Part shown: piece after piece, positions 2,673 through 11,772 of the stretch
Layout of the letters: every line of letters begins with the position of its first letter
Position numbering within the stretch: position 1 is the first letter of the stretch
Assembly: GCA_030549955.1 (NCBI GenBank)
Contig: JAUQQI010000116.1
Location: 1 to 11,772 of the forward strand
Reading direction: 5' to 3'
Source: Chloroflexota bacterium
GTDB lineage: Bacteria > Chloroflexota > Dehalococcoidia > JAUQQI01
Length of the DNA: 11,772 nt
Notes under the pieces: generated by a model
Seen by the model: the letters and a program-made list of their open reading frames with translations, nothing else
The model's database searches: none
What the model was told of the DNA's origin: nothing
Translations under genes and position numbers: made by a program

Positions 2673-2689
2673 GGTAGCCTCAGGCTGCC
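2673..2689. terminator. Possible shared terminator hairpin between convergent mreB and copA
   Basis: GGTAGCC and GGCTGCC form a 7-bp stem (one G-U pair) with a 3-nt loop, TCA, which is the copA stop codon read on the other strand. A competing 5-bp stem, GGCTA/TAGCC, lies at 2665-2679. No T-tract follows on either strand, so function as an intrinsic terminator is uncertain, but this is the only structure in the 9-nt gap between two convergent genes. Confidence 0.35.
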
Positions 2690-5211
2690 ACCGCCGGACG
2701 GAACCGCCGCAGCCGGAGCGAGTTGCTCACCACCGACACCGAGCTGAAGGCCATCGCCAGGGCAGCGAGCATCGGGTTGAGGGCCGGGCCGCCGAAGGGC
2801 ACCAGCACCCCCGCAGCTACCGGGATCAGCACGACGTTGTAGACGAAAGCCCAGAAGAGGTTCTGCCGGATCGTCCTGACCGTCGCCCGGGACAGGGCGA
2901 TGGCCGTAACCACGAGCCGGAGGTCGCCTCCCACAAGGGTTATATCCGCCGTCTCCATGGCGACATCCGTTCCGGTGCCGATGGCAATGCCGACGTCGGC
3001 GGCGGCCAGGGCCGGGGCATCGTTAATGCCGTCCCCGACCATGCCAACCCGACGGCCTTCGGCCTGCAGCTCCCGGACAATCCGGGCCTTGTCTTCCGGT
3101 AGCACTTCAGCGATGACCCGACTTATCCCCGCCTCGGCAGCAATGGCCTCGGCCGTTTGCCGATTGTCGCCGGTGACCATAATGACGTCCAGGCCGAGCC
3201 GGTGGAAGGCCTCGACCGCCTCCCGGGTGCCCGGCTTAAGGGTATCGGCCAGGGTCACCAGGCCACCCAGGCGGCCATCGACAACGACGAAGACGGCCGT
3301 CTGACCCCGACGTCGGGCCGCCTCCAGGTTCGGGCCCAGCCCATCGGCCCCGGCACCGACCTCGGCCAGGAGCCGGTCGCCCCCGACCAGAACCCGGCGG
3401 CCGTCAACCACCGCCTCCACCCCCCAACCGGGCCGATACCGGAAGTCCGCCGGCTCCGGAACGCTCAGCCCCTCGGCCTCAGCCCGGCGCAGGATTGCCC
3501 GGGCCAGGGGGTGTTCGCTCCGGCGCTCGGCCGCGGCCGCAAGCCCAAGAAGCTCGACGGGGGCCAGGCCGTTGACCGGGTGGACGGCCACAACCTCGGG
3601 CCGGCCGGCGGTCAGGGTCCCGGTTTTATCCAGGACGATGGTGTCCAGACGATGGGCCCGTTCGAGGGCCTCAGCATTTCGGATCAGGATCCCAGATTCG
3701 GCTCCCCGACCGGTCCCGACCATAATCGCCGTCGGCGTCGCCAGGCCCAGAGCACACGGGCAGGCGATGATGAGCACCGCAATCGCCCGGAGCATGGCCG
3801 GGGTGAAGGCCGGCTCCGGCCCGAAGGCCAGCCAGAACCCGAAGGTGAGGGCCGCGACCCCGATGACGGCCGGAACAAACACGGCGGAGACCTGGTCAAC
3901 GAGTCGCTGGATCGGGGCCTTGCTGCCCTGGGCCTCCCGGACCAGGCGGATGATGCGGGCAAGCACCGTTCCCTCACCCACAGCTGTCGCCCGAATCACT
4001 AAGGCCCCGGCCAGGTTCACCGTGCCCCCGATAACCCGGCCACCAGGAACCTTCTCGGCGGGCATACTCTCACCCGTCACCATTGACTCATCCACCGTCG
4101 AGGCGCCATCCACCACAACCCCATCAACCGGGACCCGCTCGCCCGGCCGGACCAGGAGCAGGTCGCCGACCCGGACCGCCTCGACCGGGATTTCTTGTTC
4201 GAGCCCGTTGCTCAGCCGGCGAGCTGTCCGGGGCTGGAGGCCTATGAGCTTCCGGATTGCCGCCGAGGTCTGGACCCGGGCCCGGAGCTCCAGATAGCGG
4301 CCCAGAAGGATCAGGGCGATAATGGTGTCCGACGTGTCAAAGTAGACGTCGGGGACAACCCCGCCGGCCACGAACCAGCCCGGGAAGAAGGTCGCCAGGG
4401 CACTGTAAAAATAAGCGGCACTCGTGCCCACCGCAATCAGGGTATTCATGTCGGCTGTGCGGTGCCGGAGGGCGCCCCAGGCGCCCCGGTAGAACCGCCA
4501 GCCGGCCCAGAACTGGACCGGGGTTGCCAGCACCAGCAGAAGGAGGTTCAAAACAAAGGGGTTCTGGCCGAACACGAGGGCAACCGGGTGGGCGAGGACC
4601 TCAATAAGCTGGTCCACCGGCCCGATGCCGGTGGTCAGGGGGTGGCGGCTGTGGGCTGCCAGCATCGTGAGGACGAAGGTAACGACGGCTATTGCCGCCG
4701 CAAAAACGAACCGCCGACGCATGTCCCGGAGCTCAGCGGCATGCTCCCGGTCAAAAGCCGCTTCTTCGGGCCGCCGCAACTCCTCGGCCCCGTAACCGGC
4801 CGCCTCAACCGCAGCCTTCAGATCACCCACCGTGACGGCCCCCGGCAGGTGGTCCACCGTGGCAGTCTCAGCGGCCAGGTTGACCCGGGCATCAAGGACC
4901 CCCGGCACCCGCTTCAGCGCCCGCTCAACCCGGGCCACACAGGAGGCGCAGGTCATGCCGCTGACGCGGAGGGTTACCTGCGCCGGGGCGACTTCGTAGC
5001 CGGCCTCCTCGACGGCAAGCTTGAGCCTGGCCAGGTCGACGCCGGGTTCAACCTCAACGGTGGCCTGCTCGGTGGCAAGATTGACCGAGGCTGACCGCAC
5101 CCCCTCAACCCGGCGCAGGGCCCGCTCGACCCGAACCACGCACGAGGCGCAGGTCATTCCCCGGATGGGGAGCTCGATAGTCTGCGGCTTCGAAAGGTTA
5201 GCCTTCGTCAC
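2680..5211 (-). CDS. copA: Copper-exporting P1B-type ATPase CopA
   Basis: This is a membrane Cu(I)-translocating ATPase that exports copper from the cytoplasm at the expense of ATP. It has 843 residues from the chosen start. In order it shows two N-terminal heavy-metal-associated domains with GMTCASC at 18-24 and 85-91, membrane helices from about 168, the actuator motif TGES at 379-382, the transport motif CPC at 484-486, the phosphorylated Asp in DKTGT (D528), the P1B-specific SEHPLA (HP at 567-568) and the hinge GDGIND at 726-731. The last two helices carry YN (801-802) and MAFSS (820-824), the remaining Cu(I)-site residues typical of the P1B-1 group. The frame is open further upstream to 5439, but that part only shadows csoR. 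The GTG at 5209-5211 has GGAGG 7 nt upstream and begins just before the first metal-binding domain. It overlaps the csoR end by 14 nt, suggesting translational coupling. Confidence 0.96.
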
Positions 5212-5485
5212 CGCCCGTCCTCCGGATGTTGAGGTTAAAGATCTCGATGAGCTCGCCGGTGATCCGGTCGGCGTCGCCGGCGCGAATGCCATCGACGACG
5301 CAGGTCCGGAGATGGCCGGCCAGAACCAGGCTTTCGAGACGCTCGATGGCCCGGCGAACGGCGAGGGTCTGGCGGAGGACATCCACACAGTACTTGTCCT
5401 CCTCGACCATCCGCCGGATCCCGGCAATATGGCCCTCAATGTAATTTAGGCGCCTGATGGCTTCGGCCCGAACCTGCGGGTCCAT
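5198..5485 (-). CDS. csoR: Copper-sensing transcriptional repressor CsoR
   Basis: This is a small all-helical Cu(I)-responsive repressor of the CsoR/RcnR (DUF156) family; copper binding releases it from the operator. With the ATG at 5485 it has 95 residues. The Cu(I) ligands form the classic C-H-C set: C33 (in KYCVDV), H58 and C62 (in AGHLRTC). The family core, with [16 protein letters not shown] at 11-26, is intact. The frame is open to a TTG at 5515, but the ATG has AAGGAG 5 nt upstream and the extra ten residues would run through the operator palindrome, so the shorter form is preferred. The gene leads the csoR-copA operon and is likely autoregulated. The His in the second position and the two Cys argue for copper rather than nickel (RcnR) or formaldehyde (FrmR) sensing. 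Confidence 0.93.
5219..5223 (-). promoter_or_regulatory. Ribosome binding site of copA
   Basis: On the minus strand GGAGG sits 7 nt before the GTG at 5211, inside the csoR coding end. It decides the copA start against the longer open frame. Confidence 0.75.
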
Positions 5486-5490
5486 ACCGG

Positions 5491-5496
5491 CTCCTT
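5491..5496 (-). promoter_or_regulatory. Ribosome binding site of csoR
   Basis: On the minus strand AAGGAG lies 5 nt before the ATG at 5485. It selects this start over the TTG at 5515. Confidence 0.7.
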
Positions 5497-5508
5497 CTAT
5501 CAACAGTA

Positions 5509-5532
5509 TACCCAACCCCCGGGGGTGGGGTA
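5509..5532. promoter_or_regulatory. Putative CsoR operator palindrome
   Basis: This is a 24-bp inverted repeat with a single mismatched pair (5514/5527). Its arms begin and end TACCC...GGGTA around a CCCCCGGGGG centre. GC-rich palindromes with TACCC/GGGTA-like arms are typical of CsoR boxes. It lies between the predicted transcription start and the csoR ribosome binding site, 10 bp downstream of the -10 element, so bound CsoR would block initiation or escape. Binding is inferred. Confidence 0.72.
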
Positions 5533-5542
5533 CGCCAGTTAA

Positions 5543-5571
5543 ATAATAGTCCGGCGCCGAGCGGGTGTCAA
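5543..5571 (-). promoter_or_regulatory. Sigma-A/sigma-70-type promoter of csoR-copA
   Basis: On the minus strand TTGACA (5566-5571) and TATTAT (5543-5548) are separated by exactly 17 bp (5549-5565), close to the vegetative consensus. It is the best promoter in the window. Transcription would start around 5535-5537, next to or within the operator palindrome. Confidence 0.75.
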
Positions 5572-5636
5572 GGCCGGGGCTGGAAGCCCTTTGGAAGTTG
5601 GTGTGGTTAAGAAGTTGACAGGTATAGCGGTGGTCT

Positions 5637-5673
5637 GGGGGTCAGCCCCCGATAGCTGCAGAAAAACTATTGG
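5637..5673 (+). other. Two mutually exclusive small hairpins in the cytochrome c leader
   Basis: GGGGG (5637-5641) can pair with CCCCC (5646-5650) around a 4-nt loop. Alternatively CCGATAG (5649-5655) can pair with CTATTGG (5667-5673), with one G-U pair and an 11-nt loop. The two stems share bases 5649-5650. They lie 13-50 nt before the cytochrome c ATG. No recognised riboswitch is evident, and a regulatory role is only a possibility. Confidence 0.25.
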
Positions 5674-5686
5674 CGGTGTGACGGCG

Positions 5687-6520
5687 ATGAAGGTCAAATT
5701 TTACCGGGTCTTGGCGGCCGCGGCAACGGCCGCTTTAACCGCAGGGCTTGCTTTCTCCGTCTTTGCCCAGCCCCCAGTCGAGCAAGGTCAGCAGATCTTC
5801 CAGCAAAAATGTATCGGTTGCCACACCATCGGCCAGGGCGACCGGGTCGGCCCGGACCTGAAGGGGGTGACCCAGCGGCGGGACCGCGCCTGGCTTGAGC
5901 AGTGGATTTTGGCCCCTGACCAGATGCTCGCCCGGGGCGACCCCATCGCCACGCAACTGCTGCGTCAGTACAACAACGTCGCGATGCCGAACCTTGGCCT
6001 GAGCCGGGACCAAGTGCTCGCCGTCATCAGCTACGTGGAGGCGGCCACCACCGGACAGGCTCCGGCGCCGGCGGCCGCCCTGCAGCTCCCGGCCGGGGAC
6101 CCGGTCCGGGGCAAGAACCTCTTCACCGGGGTCGACCGGTTCCAGAACGGCGGGCCGGCTTGCCTGGCCTGTCACAGCGTCGCCGGAATTGGCGCCCTGG
6201 GCGGGGGTCTGCTGGGCCCCGACCTGACCGGGGTTGTCGACCGCTACGGCGGGCCGCAGGGTCTGGCCAGTTTTGTCAGCGCCCCAGGTACCCCGGTGAT
6301 GAGCTCGGTCTGGCCCCAGAAGCCGCTGACCCCGCAGGAACTGGCCGACGTAACCGCCTTCCTGCAGCAGGCCTCGGTCGGGGAGCGGCCACTCCAGCTG
6401 GTCTGGCAGCTTGGGGCCATTGCGGTGGCCGGGGTGGCCCTCCTGGCCGGCGTGGCCACCGTCTACTGGCGCAACCGGCTGGCCGGCGGATTGCGCCGCC
6501 GCTGGCTTGGGTATCAATAG
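5687..6520 (+). CDS. Membrane-anchored diheme cytochrome c of the nar/nxr operon
   Basis: This is a 277-residue c-type cytochrome likely to carry electrons on the outer face of the membrane. A signal peptide spans about residues 1-28 (MKVK, then an Ala/Leu-rich core ending near FAQ). The first heme site is CIGCH at 42-46, with Met100 in AMPNLG as probable sixth ligand. The second is CLACH at 159-163, with Met205 a candidate ligand. A single hydrophobic helix at about 238-260, followed by Arg-rich residues, anchors the C terminus with a cytoplasmic tail. The ATG at 5687 is chosen because it starts the signal peptide directly; the ribosome binding site is weak, GTG at 5678 is possible, and the frame is open back to 5591. 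It ends 27 nt before narG/nxrA. By position and type it resembles NarC of the Thermus nar operon, and the cytochrome c gene heading Nitrobacter nxr. It may link the oxidoreductase to terminal oxidases or quinol oxidation. Confidence 0.88.
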   Translation: MKVKFYRVLAAAATAALTAGLAFSVFAQPPVEQGQQIFQQKCIGCHTIGQGDRVGPDLKGVTQRRDRAWLEQWILAPDQMLARGDPIATQLLRQYNNVAMPNLGLSRDQVLAVISYVEAATTGQAPAPAAALQLPAGDPVRGKNLFTGVDRFQNGGPACLACHSVAGIGALGGGLLGPDLTGVVDRYGGPQGLASFVSAPGTPVMSSVWPQKPLTPQELADVTAFLQQASVGERPLQLVWQLGAIAVAGVALLAGVATVYWRNRLAGGLRRRWLGYQ

Positions 6521-6534
6521 GGTCTGAACTGAGA

Positions 6535-6539
6535 GGAGG
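6535..6539 (+). promoter_or_regulatory. Strong ribosome binding site of narG/nxrA
   Basis: GGAGG, within AGAGGAGG at 6532-6539, sits 8 nt before the ATG at 6548. It is the best-placed such site in the operon, consistent with high expression of the catalytic subunit. Confidence 0.75.
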
Positions 6540-6547
6540 CCATTAAG

Positions 6548-9500
6548 ATGGGCTGGATTCAGGACCTCGTAAATCCGAAGCAAAGGGTCTGGGAAGAGTT
6601 CTACCGGAACCGGTGGGCCCACGACCGGGTCGTTCGGAGCACCCACGGGGTCAACTGCACCGGCGGCTGCTCCTGGGCCGTCTACGTTAAGGACGGCATC
6701 ATCACCTGGGAGATGCAGCAGACGGATTATCCGCTGCTCGAATCGAAGCTTCCCCCTTACGAGCCCCGGGGCTGTCAGCGGGGAATCTCCGCTTCCTGGT
6801 ACGTCTACAGCCCGATCCGGGTCAAGTATCCGTATGTCCGGGGCCGGCTCCTCGACTACTGGCGGGAGGCCCGGGCCCGGCATACGAACCCGGTCGAGGC
6901 CTGGGCCTCGATTGTCGAGGACGAAGAAAAGCGGCGCCGCTACCAGTGGGCCCGGGGCAAGGGCGGCTTCCAGCGGGCCTCCTGGGATGAGGTCCTCGAG
7001 CTGATTGCCGCGGCCTGCCTCTACACCGCCCGGAAGTGGGGCCCCGACCGGGTCGCCGGCTTCTCGCCGATTCCGGCCATGTCCTATCTGTCTTACGCCG
7101 CCGGGTCGAGGTTCCTGCAGCTTTTCGGCGGCTTTAACATGAGCTTCTACGACTGGTACGCCGACCTGCCCAACGCCTTCCCGGAGGTCTGGGGCGACCA
7201 GACGGATGTGTGCGAGAGCGCCGACTGGTACAACGGCAAGTTCATCGTCAGCATGGGCTCCAACCTCAACATGACCCGGACCCCGGACGTCCACTTCATC
7301 TCGGAGGCCCGGCACGAAGGGGCCAAGTTCGTCGTCATCTCGCCGGACTTCAGCCAGGTGGCCAAGTATTCTGACTGGTGGATCCCCATCAAGGCCGGGC
7401 AGGACCTGCCCTTCTGGATGGCCGTAAACCACGTCATCCTTAAGGAGTTCTACGTCGACCGGCAGGTGCCCTACTTTGTTGATTACGTCAAGCGCTACAC
7501 CGACTTACCGTTCCTGGTCGAGCTTATACCGGTCCCTGGCGGCTACCGGATGGGCAAGCTGGTCCGGGCTAATCGGCTTGCCCGCTACGCTGAGGTCACC
7601 AATGGCGACTGGAAGATGGTCGTCTTCGACCGGCTCAGCGGCGAGCCCCGGATGCCCAAGGGTCAGGTCGGCTTCCGCTGGGACAAAGAAAGGGGCAAGT
7701 GGAACCTCAAGATGGAGGACGGCCTCGACGACAGTCCCATCGACCCGGTCCTTTCCTTCCTGGGCGAGCACGACGAGATTGTCAAGGTCGGTTTCTATGC
7801 CCACGCCGAGAAGCAGATGCTCTGGCGGGGCGTGCCGGCCAGGCGCCTGCGGCTTAAGGACGGCTCGACGATTCTGGTGACGACCGCCTTCGACCTGCAC
7901 ATGGCCCACTTCGGCATCAGCCGCGGCCTCCCCGGCGACTTTCCGCGCGACTACGACGATGACGTGCCGTACACCCCGGCCTGGCAGGAGAAGTTCACCG
8001 GCATCGGCCGCGCCACCGTCACCAGGTTTGCCCGGGAGTTTGCCCACAACGCCGAGGTGACCCAGGGGCGGTCGATGGTCATCATCGGGGCCAGCGTCAA
8101 CCACTGGTACCATAACAATCTGATCTACCGGGCCGTCATTAACGCCCTGATCCTCTGCGGGTGCTGCGGCCGCAATGGCGGCGGCATGAACCACTACGTC
8201 GGCCAGGAGAAGCTCACGCTCATTGCCCCCTGGGTGAGCCTGGCCTTTGCCCTCGACTGGGTCAAGCCGCCCAGGCGCCAGCAGACCCCCACCTGGCACT
8301 ACGTAAACAGCGACCAGTGGCGGTATGAGGCCGAGTTTACCGATTACGATAGCGTGCCCCCGGAGGCCCGCTGGGCGAAGGGCCACGCCGTCGACCTGGT
8401 GGCAAAGGCCGTCAGGCTGGGCTGGATGCCCTGGTACCCGCAGTTCAACCGCAACCCCCTTGAAATCATCCGGGATGCCGAGCGGGCCGGGTGCAAGACA
8501 GATGCCGAGATTATCCAGTGGGTTGTCGACCAGCTCAGGCAGGGCAAGCTCCGGTTTGCGGTTGAGGACCCCGACGCCCCCGAGAACTGGCCCCGGGTCT
8601 GGTTCATCTGGCGGGGCAATGCTATCCAGTCGAGTGCCAAGGGCCACGAGTTCTTCCTGCGCCACTACCTGGGCACCCACGACAACGCCGTTGCCCCGGA
8701 GCGGGCCGGGGGCAAGACCCGGGTTGTTCGCTACCGGGAGCCGGCCCCGCGGGGGAAGATGGACCTGGTCATCGACATCAACTTCCGGATGGACTCTTCG
8801 GCCCTTTATTCGGACATCGTTTTGCCGACGGCCTTCTGGTACGAAAAGAATGACGTTAACACCACCGACCTGCACTCCTTTGTTCACCCGCTCGGCGAGG
8901 CGGCCCCACCGGCCTGGGAGTCCAAGACCGACTGGGATATCTTCAAGTCGGTTGCCCGGAAAGTCAGTGAGCTTGCCCCGCTGGTGTTCCCCCAGCCGGT
9001 AAGGGACCTGGTGGCCACGCCCCTCATGCATGATACGCCCGATGAGCTTGCCCAGCCCCGGGTCCTGGACTGGGCGGAGGGCGAGACCGAGCCGGTTCCG
9101 GGCAAGACGATGCCGCACCTGCGGGTCGTTGAGCGGGACTACGTCAATCTTTACCGGCGCTTTATCTCCCTGGGCCCGCTCATCCGCCAGGACGGGATAA
9201 GCGGCAACGGCGTCCACATCAACATCGAGCAGTTCTACGACGAGCTCCTCGAGCTCGGCAAGGTCGCCGACTTCCCCGACCCGTGGCGGGTCCGGTGTGT
9301 GGAGTGGGACGGCCGGCGCTACCCGAGCCTGGAGGACCCGCTGGATGCGGCCAATGTCCTGCTCCACCTTGCCCCGGAGACCAACGGCGAGGTCGCCTAC
9401 CACGCCTTCAAAGAAGAGGAGGAGCGGACCGGGGTGCCCCTGGCCGACCTGGCCGAGCCGAACCGGGCCCACCGGGTGACCTTTGGTGATATCACCCGCC

Positions 9501-10195
9501 AGCCGCGCCGGACCCTCACCAGCCCCTGCTGGACCGGCATCGTCAACAACGGCCGGGCCTACTCGGCCTGGTGTCTTAACGTCGAGCGGCTGGTGCCCTG
9601 GCGGACCCTTACGGGCCGGCAGACGCTTTATATCGACCACGAGTGGTACCTGGACTTCGATGAGGCCCTGCCAACCCACAAACCGAAGCTCGACTGGCGC
9701 AAGACCGGGGACATCATCAACAGCCGGGTCGACGATAAGTGTCTCATTCTCAACTACATCACGCCCCACGGCAAGTGGAACATTCACTCGACCTACAAGG
9801 ACAACCACCGGATGCTCACCCTCTCCCGGGGCATGGACCCGGTCTGGATCAACGACAAGGATGCCGAGCGGGTCGGCATCAAGGACAACGACTGGGTCGA
9901 GGTGTACAACGACAACGGGGTTGTGGTGACCCGGGCCTGCGTCAGCGCCCGGATTCAGCCCGGCACCTGCCTCTACTACCACGCCGTCGAGCGGACCGTC
10001 TACATCCCCAAATCGCAGGAACGGGGCCGGCGGGGCGGCGGCCACAACAGCCTGACCCGGACCCGGATAAACCCGGTGGAGCTGGCCGGCGGCTACGCCC
10101 AGTTCACCTACGGCTTCAACTACTGGGGCCCCATCGGGATCATGACCCGGGACACCCACGTCCTCGTTCGGAAGATGGAGAAGCTCGAGTGGTAG
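6548..10195 (+). CDS. narG: Respiratory nitrate reductase alpha subunit / nitrite oxidoreductase NxrA
   Basis: This is the catalytic molybdo-bis(MGD) subunit interconverting nitrate and nitrite. It has 1215 residues (E. coli NarG 1247). The FS0 [4Fe-4S] ligands are H33, C37 and C41 ([13 protein letters not shown]) and C76 (YEPRGCQRG). The Mo-ligand Asp is D206 in FYDWYADLP, equivalent to E. coli Asp222. Further NarG signatures are GFSPIPAMS (171-179), [12 protein letters not shown] (218-229), and a C-terminal molybdopterin-dinucleotide-binding domain from about 1070 containing [12 protein letters not shown] and YGFNYWGP. There is no twin-arginine leader, so the active site should face the cytoplasm, as in NarGHI and Nitrobacter-type Nxr. 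Compared with E. coli, VPQ of GSNVPQTRTPD is LNM (240-242) and the CTGSCSW serine is Gly. Cofactors, length and neighbours fit both nitrate reductase and NxrA. The cytochrome c upstream and prolyl isomerase downstream lean towards nxrA, but direction is not proven. Confidence 0.96.
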
Positions 10196-10197
10196 GG

Positions 10198-10902
10198 ATG
10201 GCGGACCGGCTTCCGACCCCAAACCCGAACCCTGACGGCAGGGGCACCGCCCAGCCGATCTTCCTGCTCGGCGATGTCGGCCAGCTGAGGCGGCGGGATG
10301 AGCAGGTTGTTACCAGGGGCAAAGTCGTGGCCATCTACTACATGTTGAAGGTCAACGGCATCCTCCGGCACGGCCGGTCGCCCCTTTGGAACGACCCGCC
10401 CCTGGAGTACCTGCACGGGTCCGGGCAGGTCATCCCGGGTCTGGAGAAGGCCCTGGAAGGCCGGCGGGTCGGCGAAAGCTTCAAGGTCGTCCTGCCGCCT
10501 GAGGAGGCCTACGGGCCGCGCCGGCGGGAGCTCCAGCAGAAGGTCCCCATTGACGACCTGCGGGCGGCCCTGGGCCTTAAGAAAATCGAGGAGGGGCTGG
10601 TCTTCCAGGGCCGGACCGAGGACGGGCGGGTCGAGACTTTTATGGTTACGGAGGTCCTTGAGGATGAGGGGATGGCCCTGGTTGACGCCAACCATCCCCT
10701 CGCCGGGATGGAGCTCGTCTTTGAGGTCGACGTGGTCGGGATCCGGGAGCCGACCGAGGAGGAGGCCCGGCGGGGTTTCGTGGCCCCCCATCCGGCCGGG
10801 AGCGGGACCCACGGCCGGAGGGGCTGGGTCCACCGGCCGGGCGCCGACCTCAGCGACCGGGACGAGCTCCATGATTTTGAAGATTGGGAGGAGGGTCACT
10901 AA
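10198..10902 (+). CDS. SlyD-like FKBP-type peptidyl-prolyl cis-trans isomerase inserted between alpha and beta genes
   Basis: This is a 234-residue protein with a SlyD-type FKBP fold. The first FKBP half spans about 41-108 (GKVVAIYYML, LEYLHGSGQVIPGLEKALEG, LPPEEAYGPRR). A chaperone insert-in-flap region spans about 112-160. The closing strand contains ANHPLAGMELVFEVDVVGIR (164-183), followed by EPTEEE. SlyD proteins combine prolyl isomerase and holdase activity, and some help insert metals. This one has an unusual 40-residue N-terminal extension rich in Pro and Arg. Its tail is acidic (DLSD, DFEDWEEGH) rather than Cys/His-rich, so nickel delivery is unlikely. No export signal is seen, so it should be cytoplasmic with NarG/NxrA and NarH/NxrB. 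The ATG at 10198 lies 2 nt after the narG stop; a GTG at 10189 would overlap narG. Nitrobacter nxr operons carry a prolyl isomerase gene (nxrX) at the same position, so a role in folding or assembling the AB complex is likely but inferred. Confidence 0.9.
   Translation: MADRLPTPNPNPDGRGTAQPIFLLGDVGQLRRRDEQVVTRGKVVAIYYMLKVNGILRHGRSPLWNDPPLEYLHGSGQVIPGLEKALEGRRVGESFKVVLPPEEAYGPRRRELQQKVPIDDLRAALGLKKIEEGLVFQGRTEDGRVETFMVTEVLEDEGMALVDANHPLAGMELVFEVDVVGIREPTEEEARRGFVAPHPAGSGTHGRRGWVHRPGADLSDRDELHDFEDWEEGH
10887..10895 (+). promoter_or_regulatory. Ribosome binding site of narH/nxrB
   Basis: GGAGGAGGG lies 7 nt before the ATG at 10903, inside the last codons of the prolyl isomerase gene. It fixes the narH start and makes coupled translation likely. 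Confidence 0.75.
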
Positions 10903-11772
10903 ATGGATATTCGGGCGCAGGTTTCGATGGTCTTTCACCTGGACAAGTGCATCGGTTGTCACACCTGCAGCATCGCCTGCAAGAACATCTGGACCGACCG
11001 CAAGGGTGCCGAGTACATGTGGTGGAACAACGTCGAAACAAAACCCGGTACCGGGTACCCGTTCCGGTGGGAGGACCAGGAGCGTTATCGCGGCGGCTGG
11101 GTCCTTGACGAGAAACGCAACAAGCTTAAGCTCAGGCTCCAGGGCAAGTTTGGCACCCTGGTCAATATCTTCTACAACCCATACCTTCCGGCCCTGGACG
11201 ACTACTATGAGCCCTGGACCTATGACTATCAGAATCTCTTCGATGCCCCTGAGGGCGACGACCAGCCCGCCGTCCGGGCGATCTCAATGGTGACCGGCAA
11301 GTACATCGACACCATCGAGTACGGCCCGAACTGGGATGACGACCTGGGCGGGTCGACAGTCTACGCCGCCAACGACCCGAACCTGGACGGGTGGACCGAA
11401 GAGGAGCGGATGCAGATGCGGGAGGTGCTGCGGGTTGCGTTCTTCTACCTGCCGCGCATCTGCAACCACTGCCTGAACCCGGGCTGCGTTGCGGCCTGCC
11501 CGGCCGGGGCGATTTACAAGCGGGGCGAGGACGGCATCGTGCTTATTGGCCAGGACAAGTGCCGGGCCTGGCGGATGTGCATCTCGGGCTGCCCCTACAA
11601 AAAGGTCTACTTTAACTGGGCAACGGGCAAGTCCGAAAAGTGCATCCTCTGCTACCCCCGGCTTGAGACCGGTCAGCCGCCGGCCTGCTTCCACGCCTGC
11701 GTCGGCCGGATCCGGTACATCGGGCTCGTGCTTTACGACGCCGGCCGGATTGAGCAGGCAGCCAGGGCTCCG
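10903..11772 (+). CDS. narH: Respiratory nitrate reductase beta subunit / nitrite oxidoreductase NxrB (3' end cut by window)
   Basis: This is the iron-sulfur electron-transfer subunit that links the molybdenum subunit to the membrane cytochrome b (NarI/NxrI) or its equivalent. The visible 290 residues align with the N-terminal part of NarH (about 510 in E. coli). Four Cys clusters are complete: C16-C19-C22-C26 (CIGCHTCSIAC), C187-C190-C195-C199 (CNHCLNPGCVAAC), C220-C226-C230 and C247-C250-C262-C266. In the third, Trp223 in CRAWRMC replaces one Cys, as in E. coli NarH, which marks the [3Fe-4S] cluster beside three [4Fe-4S] clusters. NarH signatures NNVETKPG, DDYYEPW and GPNWDDDLGG are present. 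No signal sequence is seen, consistent with a cytoplasmic partner of the alpha subunit. It starts directly after the prolyl isomerase stop codon. The frame remains open to the last base, and narJ- and narI-like genes are expected beyond it. Confidence 0.96.
   Translation, partial: MDIRAQVSMVFHLDKCIGCHTCSIACKNIWTDRKGAEYMWWNNVETKPGTGYPFRWEDQERYRGGWVLDEKRNKLKLRLQGKFGTLVNIFYNPYLPALDDYYEPWTYDYQNLFDAPEGDDQPAVRAISMVTGKYIDTIEYGPNWDDDLGGSTVYAANDPNLDGWTEEERMQMREVLRVAFFYLPRICNHCLNPGCVAACPAGAIYKRGEDGIVLIGQDKCRAWRMCISGCPYKKVYFNWATGKSEKCILCYPRLETGQPPACFHACVGRIRYIGLVLYDAGRIEQAARAP

Follow-up and report, generated by a model that had tools for sequence, protein, structure and literature searches.

The locus and its genes

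The window, as we call the whole 11,772-nt stretch of DNA analysed here, is the entire contig JAUQQI010000116.1 (G000:C275) from a genome bin of the class Dehalococcoidia, phylum Chloroflexota. From 5687 to 11772 its plus strand carries, head to tail, genes for a cytochrome c, a catalytic NarG/NxrA subunit, an isomerase (NxrX) and a NarH/NxrB iron-sulfur subunit, which we treat as a candidate nitrite oxidoreductase (NXR) operon of the Nitrobacter type. The first-pass annotation had described these genes as one tight series with an alpha subunit of 1215 amino acids (aa), and all four were found at the place and on the strand it gave:

5687..6520, plus strand: cytochrome c; ATG start, 277 aa; Cytochrom_C (Pfam), E=8.3e-20
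6548..10195, plus strand: nxrA/narG, catalytic molybdenum subunit; 1215 aa; TIGR01580, 1538 bits (cut-off 1084)
10198..10902, plus strand: nxrX, SlyD-type FKBP prolyl isomerase/chaperone; ATG start, 234 aa; FKBP_C, E=3e-10
10903..11772 (contig end), plus strand: nxrB/narH, iron-sulfur subunit; ATG start; N-terminal 290 of about 510 residues; TIGR01660, 462 bits

The spacings are 27 bases between the cytochrome c gene and narG, 2 between narG and the isomerase gene, and 0 between the latter and narH. The score of nxrB lies below the full-length cut-off of TIGR01660 (524 bits) because the gene is truncated by the contig end, and a search with full-length NarH found no remainder of it elsewhere in the bin. 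The cytochrome c contains two CxxCH motifs (residues 42 and 159), an N-terminal signal or anchor and a hydrophobic stretch at the C-terminus; its counterparts are nwi_0773 of Nitrobacter and narC of Thermus. The NxrA translation starts without a twin-arginine signal, consistent with a cytoplasmic orientation. Two other enzyme types were considered and rejected. For an E. coli/Bacillus-type NarG, the Nitr_red_alph_N domain (PF14710) had no match in the bin, with E. coli and B. subtilis controls positive; for a periplasmic NXR of the Nitrospira/anammox type, the match to Kuenenia NxrA (7b04) reached 97 bits, versus 1303-1309 bits to E. coli NarG structures.

Gene order in other genomes

In Nitrobacter winogradskyi the reported order of nwi_0773-0779 is cytochrome c, nxrA, nxrX, nxrB, narJ, nxrC and narK (PMC4786786), and the four genes of the window follow the order of the first four. 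The same arrangement recurred in three loci of inferred Nitrobacter (L246, L248, L250) and, to the limit of its contig, in a fourth (L252). These references were drawn from a second set of 391 genomes and assigned to Nitrobacter on the basis of two nxrA copies per genome and NarG identities of 69-70% to Nitrococcus; at another inferred Nitrobacter locus (L254, one of two copies), narH lay 1.65 kb after narG, with NxrX undetected between them. The window differs from the Nitrobacter system in its host phylum and in copy number, since its bin contains one NarG above the TIGR01580 cut-off (four further matches are distant, at 17-35 bits) and the inferred Nitrobacter genomes have two.

The order cytochrome c, nxrA, nxrX and nxrB, followed by narJ and narI, was also found in a Thermomicrobiaceae metagenome-assembled genome (MAG; L006), in bacterium HR28 (L212), in G240 (L213) and in the Burkholderiaceae MAG Bin_7R (L007), where the complete operon spans L007:3858-11796 in a genome with no RuBisCO match. 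The Thermomicrobiaceae-family operons (CALKCJ010000044, HR28, G240) thus share the window's order, with narJ and narI following nxrB. In the other Chloroflexota stretches carrying both genes, NxrX stood between narG and narH in 0 of 24. At loci L215 and L216 narG and narH were over 1 kb apart; in L216 a 587-aa open reading frame (ORF) at 5391-7154, on the same strand of this Chloroflexota nar operon, lies between narH and narG and is not NxrX.

Nitrococcus resembles the window in having the cytochrome c gene first and in encoding an NxrX-family protein, but differs in that its nxrX does not lie between nxrA and nxrB: narH directly followed narG in five of five stretches with both genes, and nxrX was located elsewhere. 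In Nitrococcus mobilis (G918), for example, the NxrX-family gene at C1:1772017-1772586 (L261) is far from the nxrA copies at 146725 and 3330859. The Thermus narCGHJIK operon and the nar operons of other Dehalococcoidia (class-mates) share the plan of cytochrome c, narG, narH, narJ and narI, with a transporter gene as well in Thermus JL-18; they are unlike the window in having no NxrX. A further genome of the family of the inferred Nitrobacter (G1075, 4.9 Mb) holds an NxrA fragment 73% identical to that of the window and adjoining a cytochrome c gene (L255, L259), with NxrX (302 bits) on another contig. A single nxrA was seen there, so this is possibly a Nitrobacter-type NXR outside Nitrobacter.

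The NxrX isomerase

The isomerase scored 103 bits against the SlyD model NF008008, under that model's cut-off of 174. Its closest protein matches, from other assemblies, were 75-85% identical (P0002-P0007), with a broader group at 40-59%, and it shared 52% identity over 148 aa with the nxrX product of the inferred Nitrobacter locus L246. We built a midpoint-rooted tree of 95 proteins, comprising the window protein, eight operon proteins, 60 search matches and, as ordinary SlyD, every third of loci L008-L085. In this tree an NxrX clade of 51 (support 1.0, branch 0.33) stood apart from the 44 other SlyD-like proteins and contained the proteins of the window, the Thermomicrobiaceae family, Burkholderiaceae, inferred Nitrobacter and Nitrococcus together with 42 search matches, one of which (P0001) is the window's own copy. 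An AlphaFold model of the window NxrX (mean predicted local distance difference test score 79; 149 of 234 residues at 90 or above; both termini disordered) matched Thermus SlyD in Foldseek (E=2.7e-18, target-normalised template modelling score 0.90, 160 columns), and on this model the protein would keep the FKBP and insert-in-flap plan of a prolyl isomerase/chaperone.

The distribution of NxrX was surveyed in 38 genomes with a profile (alignment A1) of 31 NxrX-family proteins that included one from Nitrococcus and close kin, and none labelled Nitrobacter. Sixteen genomes gave 267-306 bits, five gave 96-110 bits and 17 had no match at E<=1e-10. The 16 positives were the bin of the window (G000), five of five genomes of the Nitrococcus order (G918-G922), five of five inferred Nitrobacter, three of the Thermomicrobiaceae family (G357, G178, G240) and two other proteobacteria (G488, G1075). 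The 22 negatives (110 bits or less), namely 12 class-mates and 10 other Chloroflexota, all bear NarG or pieces of it; several are incomplete bins (54-99%), and the gene-order survey was concordant. When genome contigs were scanned with the NxrX alignment, a nar context was found among the best 80 loci in L006 and L007, the two to which tblastn was applied; judged by title and identity, most of the others were SlyD from Gammaproteobacteria and elsewhere. Among 43 plasmid records no NxrX-like match exceeded 80% coverage, and the best 40 of 314 matches in a plasmid search were only Thermus NarGs and others about 50% identical. No NarG above 54% identity was found in 397 genomes of the Chelativorans order.

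Sequence identity and phylogeny

The window NxrA was 91% identical to P0121 from another assembly, 80-81% to the NxrX-bearing homologues of the Thermomicrobiaceae family, 71.8-73.1% to inferred Nitrobacter NxrA, 69-73% to Nitrococcus, and 62-65% to Thermus NarG and the NarGs of a seven-member class-mate group (L093, L099-L104). The NxrB fragment was 79-80% identical to inferred Nitrobacter and Nitrococcus NxrB, and the cytochrome c 45-48% identical to those of four inferred Nitrobacter operons. A comparison of fixed NarG residues yielded only R719 as common to 15 sequences that were NxrX-positive or from Nitrococcus and absent from the 13 NxrX-less sequences compared, which is too little to build on. 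In published trees the NxrA of Nitrobacter, Nitrococcus and Nitrolancea is reported to lie near cytoplasmic nitrate reductases (PMC6050957, PMC8387239).

A FastTree phylogeny of 186 NarG sequences grouped the window with P0121 and the three Thermomicrobiaceae-family genomes at support 1.0. For 56 of these sequences, picked by hand, we computed an IQ-TREE phylogeny under LG+F+R4, with supports given as the Shimodaira-Hasegawa-like approximate likelihood ratio test (SH-aLRT) and ultrafast bootstrap (UFBoot). The window clade (100/100) was joined by Nitrococcus (99.6/100) and then by a 17-member Nitrobacter side (96.7/98), and a 27-member clade took in every sequence known from NxrX-positive genomes. 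Approximately unbiased (AU) tests rejected topologies with Nitrococcus outside (p=0.013), with the window beside the class-mate G026 (whose NarG is P0194; p=0.0001), with the window outside the rest (p=0.002), and with the window and Nitrobacter to the exclusion of Nitrococcus (p=0.014). In a NarH tree of 32 sequences, the NxrX-positive operons and Nitrococcus formed a clade of 13 (91.5/91), in which the window stood beside Nitrobacter and L007. The window differs from the Thermomicrobiaceae family, its sister group in the NarG trees, in that NarH puts it closer to Nitrobacter. The NarG tree and the NxrX tree agreed in their distances, with r=0.84 for 12 genomes (Mantel p=0.0001) and r=0.68 for a set of eight that had one genome per lineage (p=0.0024).

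The window NarG has its origin outside the seven-member class-mate group, and its closest relatives of known gene context belong to the Thermomicrobiaceae family. This pattern suggests that the operon has been transferred from one lineage to another.

Metabolic genes elsewhere in the bin

On another contig (G000:C242), genes for transaldolase, rbcL, rbcS, a HAD phosphatase, phosphoribulokinase and transketolase run in one direction. The rbcL product (476 aa) scored 763 bits, rbcS 124 bits (RuBisCO_small) and phosphoribulokinase 409 bits (cut-off 236). Large and small RuBisCO subunits together with a phosphoribulokinase denote a form I RuBisCO that fixes CO2, and such an enzyme is predicted here from the three sequences. 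COX1 gave six matches above cut-off on five contigs of the bin, and contig G000:C273 encodes an aa3-type oxidase (CtaC/CtaD-like) whose subunits I and II scored 687 and 198 bits, both above cut-offs. These findings bear out the expectation of the first-pass annotation that a nitrite oxidiser would show CO2 fixation and terminal oxidases. Known nitrite oxidisers of the Nitrobacter type are reported to use the Calvin cycle (PMC6050957).

A copper nitrite reductase gene (nirK) was also found in the bin (TIGR02376, 375 bits, cut-off 296), as was the alpha subunit of formate dehydrogenase N (1124 bits, cut-off 814). The nitrite reductase at L206:13382-14782 (G000:C237) has an extra N-terminal cupredoxin domain, and its contig also encodes a COX1 homologue, an SCO1-like protein, a cytochrome b and a NarQ/NarX-like sensor kinase.

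Other features of the window

The plus strand of the first part of the window carries the 3' part of atpC, then murA and mbl; copA and csoR follow on the minus strand ahead of the cytochrome c gene. The minus-strand genes (2680-5515) diverge from the nxr genes; one encodes a copper ATPase of the CopA type that bears two metal-binding domains, the other a CsoR-like repressor. The listed ATPase ORF overlaps csoR at 5198-5439, so translation of the ATPase probably begins further downstream than the TTG given in the list.

Interpretation and alternatives

Based on these data, we read the locus as the front part of a Nitrobacter-type, cytoplasm-facing NXR operon that would run towards nitrite oxidation in an uncultured Dehalococcoidia candidate chemolithoautotroph, and we put the probability of this reading, in which the direction of catalysis is inferred, at roughly 0.68. 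Gene order, NxrX, clade membership, RuBisCO and the oxidase are all shared with Nitrobacter; on these grounds the operon most likely serves nitrite oxidation, and the organism is probably a nitrite-oxidising autotroph. In such a cell nitrite would be oxidised to nitrate at the molybdenum centre of NxrA, and NxrB, with its iron-sulfur clusters, would hand the electrons to a NarI-like NxrC, presumably encoded past the contig end, from which they would go through the membrane-anchored diheme cytochrome c to the aa3-type oxidase; a share of them may be driven uphill to feed RuBisCO-based carbon fixation. NxrX, as a SlyD-type isomerase/chaperone, might help NxrA to fold or load, and one paper, citing the genome paper, reports that it aids NXR folding (PMC4786786).

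The first-pass annotation had raised the idea of an nxr operon like that of Nitrobacter, in which nxrX separates nxrA from nxrB, and this idea gained from the gene order, the orthology of NxrX, the NarG and NarH trees and the genes for RuBisCO, phosphoribulokinase and oxidase. The lineage belongs to Chloroflexota rather than Bacillota. The combination it had named as telling against the idea, an alpha subunit placed firmly with denitrifier or Thermus NarGs in a genome without CO2 fixation, did not occur. Its proposed NarG/NxrA tree gave a divided answer: Thermus lay outside the window's clade, but a clade uniting the window with both Nitrobacter and Nitrococcus was obtained with IQ-TREE under LG+F+R4, only weakly under LG+C10, and not with FastTree.

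Several observations weigh against our reading. Raw NarG identity does not separate NxrX-positive from NxrX-less relatives, as NxrX-less Chloroflexota NarGs that belong to the same large clade share 74-75.5% identity with the window NxrA, above the values for Nitrobacter. The FastTree phylogeny excluded Nitrococcus from a clade of 152 (0.982) and did not join the window with Nitrobacter. The topology with Nitrococcus outside was kept by the Shimodaira-Hasegawa test (p=0.054), and under LG+C10 the 27-member clade was recovered at 38.9 SH-aLRT, with the window and Nitrococcus together at 99.8. The NxrX status of that clade leaves aside at least eight of its 27 members (P0129, P0124, P0137, P0145, P0149, P0168, P0183, P0188). 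Among five NxrX-positive genomes outside Nitrobacter and Nitrococcus that were searched for it, RuBisCO was found in G000 and G357 and had no match in G178 (HR28), G240 and G488, so that G357 alone of the three Thermomicrobiaceae-family genomes has it, and NxrX is not a marker of autotrophy. The contig stops within nxrB, and narJ, narI/nxrC and narK would fall past its end; the bin (2,472,290 bases in 334 contigs) is 82.4% complete and has 4.2% contamination. Finally, nirK and formate dehydrogenase would make nitrate or nitrite reduction and the use of other donors possible.

The same two genes lend substance to an account that we consider unlikely though not far-fetched, in which the enzyme is a respiratory nitrate reductase that uses NxrX for its maturation, nitrate being reduced with formate or organic donors when oxygen is short and RuBisCO serving some other lithotrophy. 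This class of enzyme operates both ways, Thermus-type nar operons likewise start with a cytochrome c, and the three NxrX-positive genomes without RuBisCO fit this account as well. However, all 10 genomes of Nitrococcus and inferred Nitrobacter had NxrX, as against none of the 22 Chloroflexota that bear NarG and stand outside the clade of the window. The gene nirK is reported from Nitrobacter too (PMC13101473), and formate oxidation genes from Nitrolancea (PMC7365893). A nitrate reductase of the Thermus narCGHJIK type, which the first-pass annotation had named as the main alternative, is refuted as a family assignment and seems to us extremely improbable: that operon also opens with a c-type cytochrome followed by narG, but the isomerase gene is absent from it, its NarG is about 62-63% identical to that of the window, and Thermus fell outside the window's clade in both the NarG and the NarH trees.

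It is very unlikely, in our judgement, that either the nxr or the RuBisCO contig, or both of them, were binned in error from another organism such as a relative of Thermomicrobium. The number of contigs, the level of contamination and the fact that the nearest NarG relatives of known context are from the Thermomicrobiaceae family rather than class-mates would all fit such an error, but atpC, murA and mbl share the contig with the operon, and the 91% NarG relative and the six NxrX relatives at 75-85% come from other assemblies. The tetranucleotide pattern of the nar half of the window correlated at r=0.87 with the RuBisCO contig and at 0.61-0.85 with eight further pieces of its own bin, the value for the window's first half being 0.71, versus 0.24-0.66 with 14 foreign stretches; the overlap is small, with two own-bin contigs (r=0.61 and 0.65) no better than the best foreign stretch (0.66).

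Significance

Dehalococcoidia are best known for anaerobic dechlorinators. In the class-mate G012 (47.9% guanine plus cytosine over the 400 kb read), five ORFs fit what we take to be the signal pattern of reductive dehalogenases, although one is short and lacks the iron-sulfur motif; the three of the five that were tested are reductive dehalogenases above the NCBIfam cut-off. No nitrite-oxidising member of the class was described in the accessible parts of the open-licence literature searched. Nitrite oxidisers reported from the Chloroflexota are Nitrolancea, Ca. Nitrocaldera and Ca. Nitrotheca, and a 2013 sediment study reported rare nxrA genes from Chloroflexi (PMC3971608). By description, the window resembles Nitrolancea, for which a Nitrobacter-like nxr organisation and a Calvin cycle are reported, and Ca. 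Nitrocaldera, for which the same organisation is reported (both PMC7365893). None of 61 genomes from the order of the Thermomicrobiaceae MAG could be recognised as Nitrolancea. NCBI taxonomy places Nitrocaldera and Nitrotheca as Chloroflexota incertae sedis, so the lineage of the window could be either of these.

Sequence usually does not reveal in which direction a NarG/NxrA enzyme works, nitrate reduction or nitrite oxidation, as was stated by Kato et al. 2018 for a 70 C reactor (PMC5877337). In that study nitrate was formed in ammonia-fed reactors kept at 65-70 C for more than 4 years, 41 bins received HR numbers, and NarH/NxrB phylogeny could not tell which gene product oxidised nitrite (PMC5877337). 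Judging by its name, which is absent from the main text of the paper, bacterium HR28 may be one of these 41 bins; it carries the NxrX operon, gave no RuBisCO match, and may be an example of a candidate nitrite oxidiser flagged by NxrX. We tentatively propose, as a joint claim somewhat short of even odds, that the Dehalococcoidia hold an autotrophic, oxygen-respiring nitrite oxidiser and that NxrX marks the nitrite-oxidising NarG/NxrA branch across phyla, flagging oxidisers where NarG/NxrA phylogeny alone cannot. The data also suggest movement of the operon between Chloroflexota and Proteobacteria. If NxrX tracks the nitrite-oxidising branch, one small gene would suffice to screen metagenomes for nitrite oxidisers, and if the proposal is true, nitrite oxidation coupled to RuBisCO would be added to a class known from dehalogenating anaerobes.

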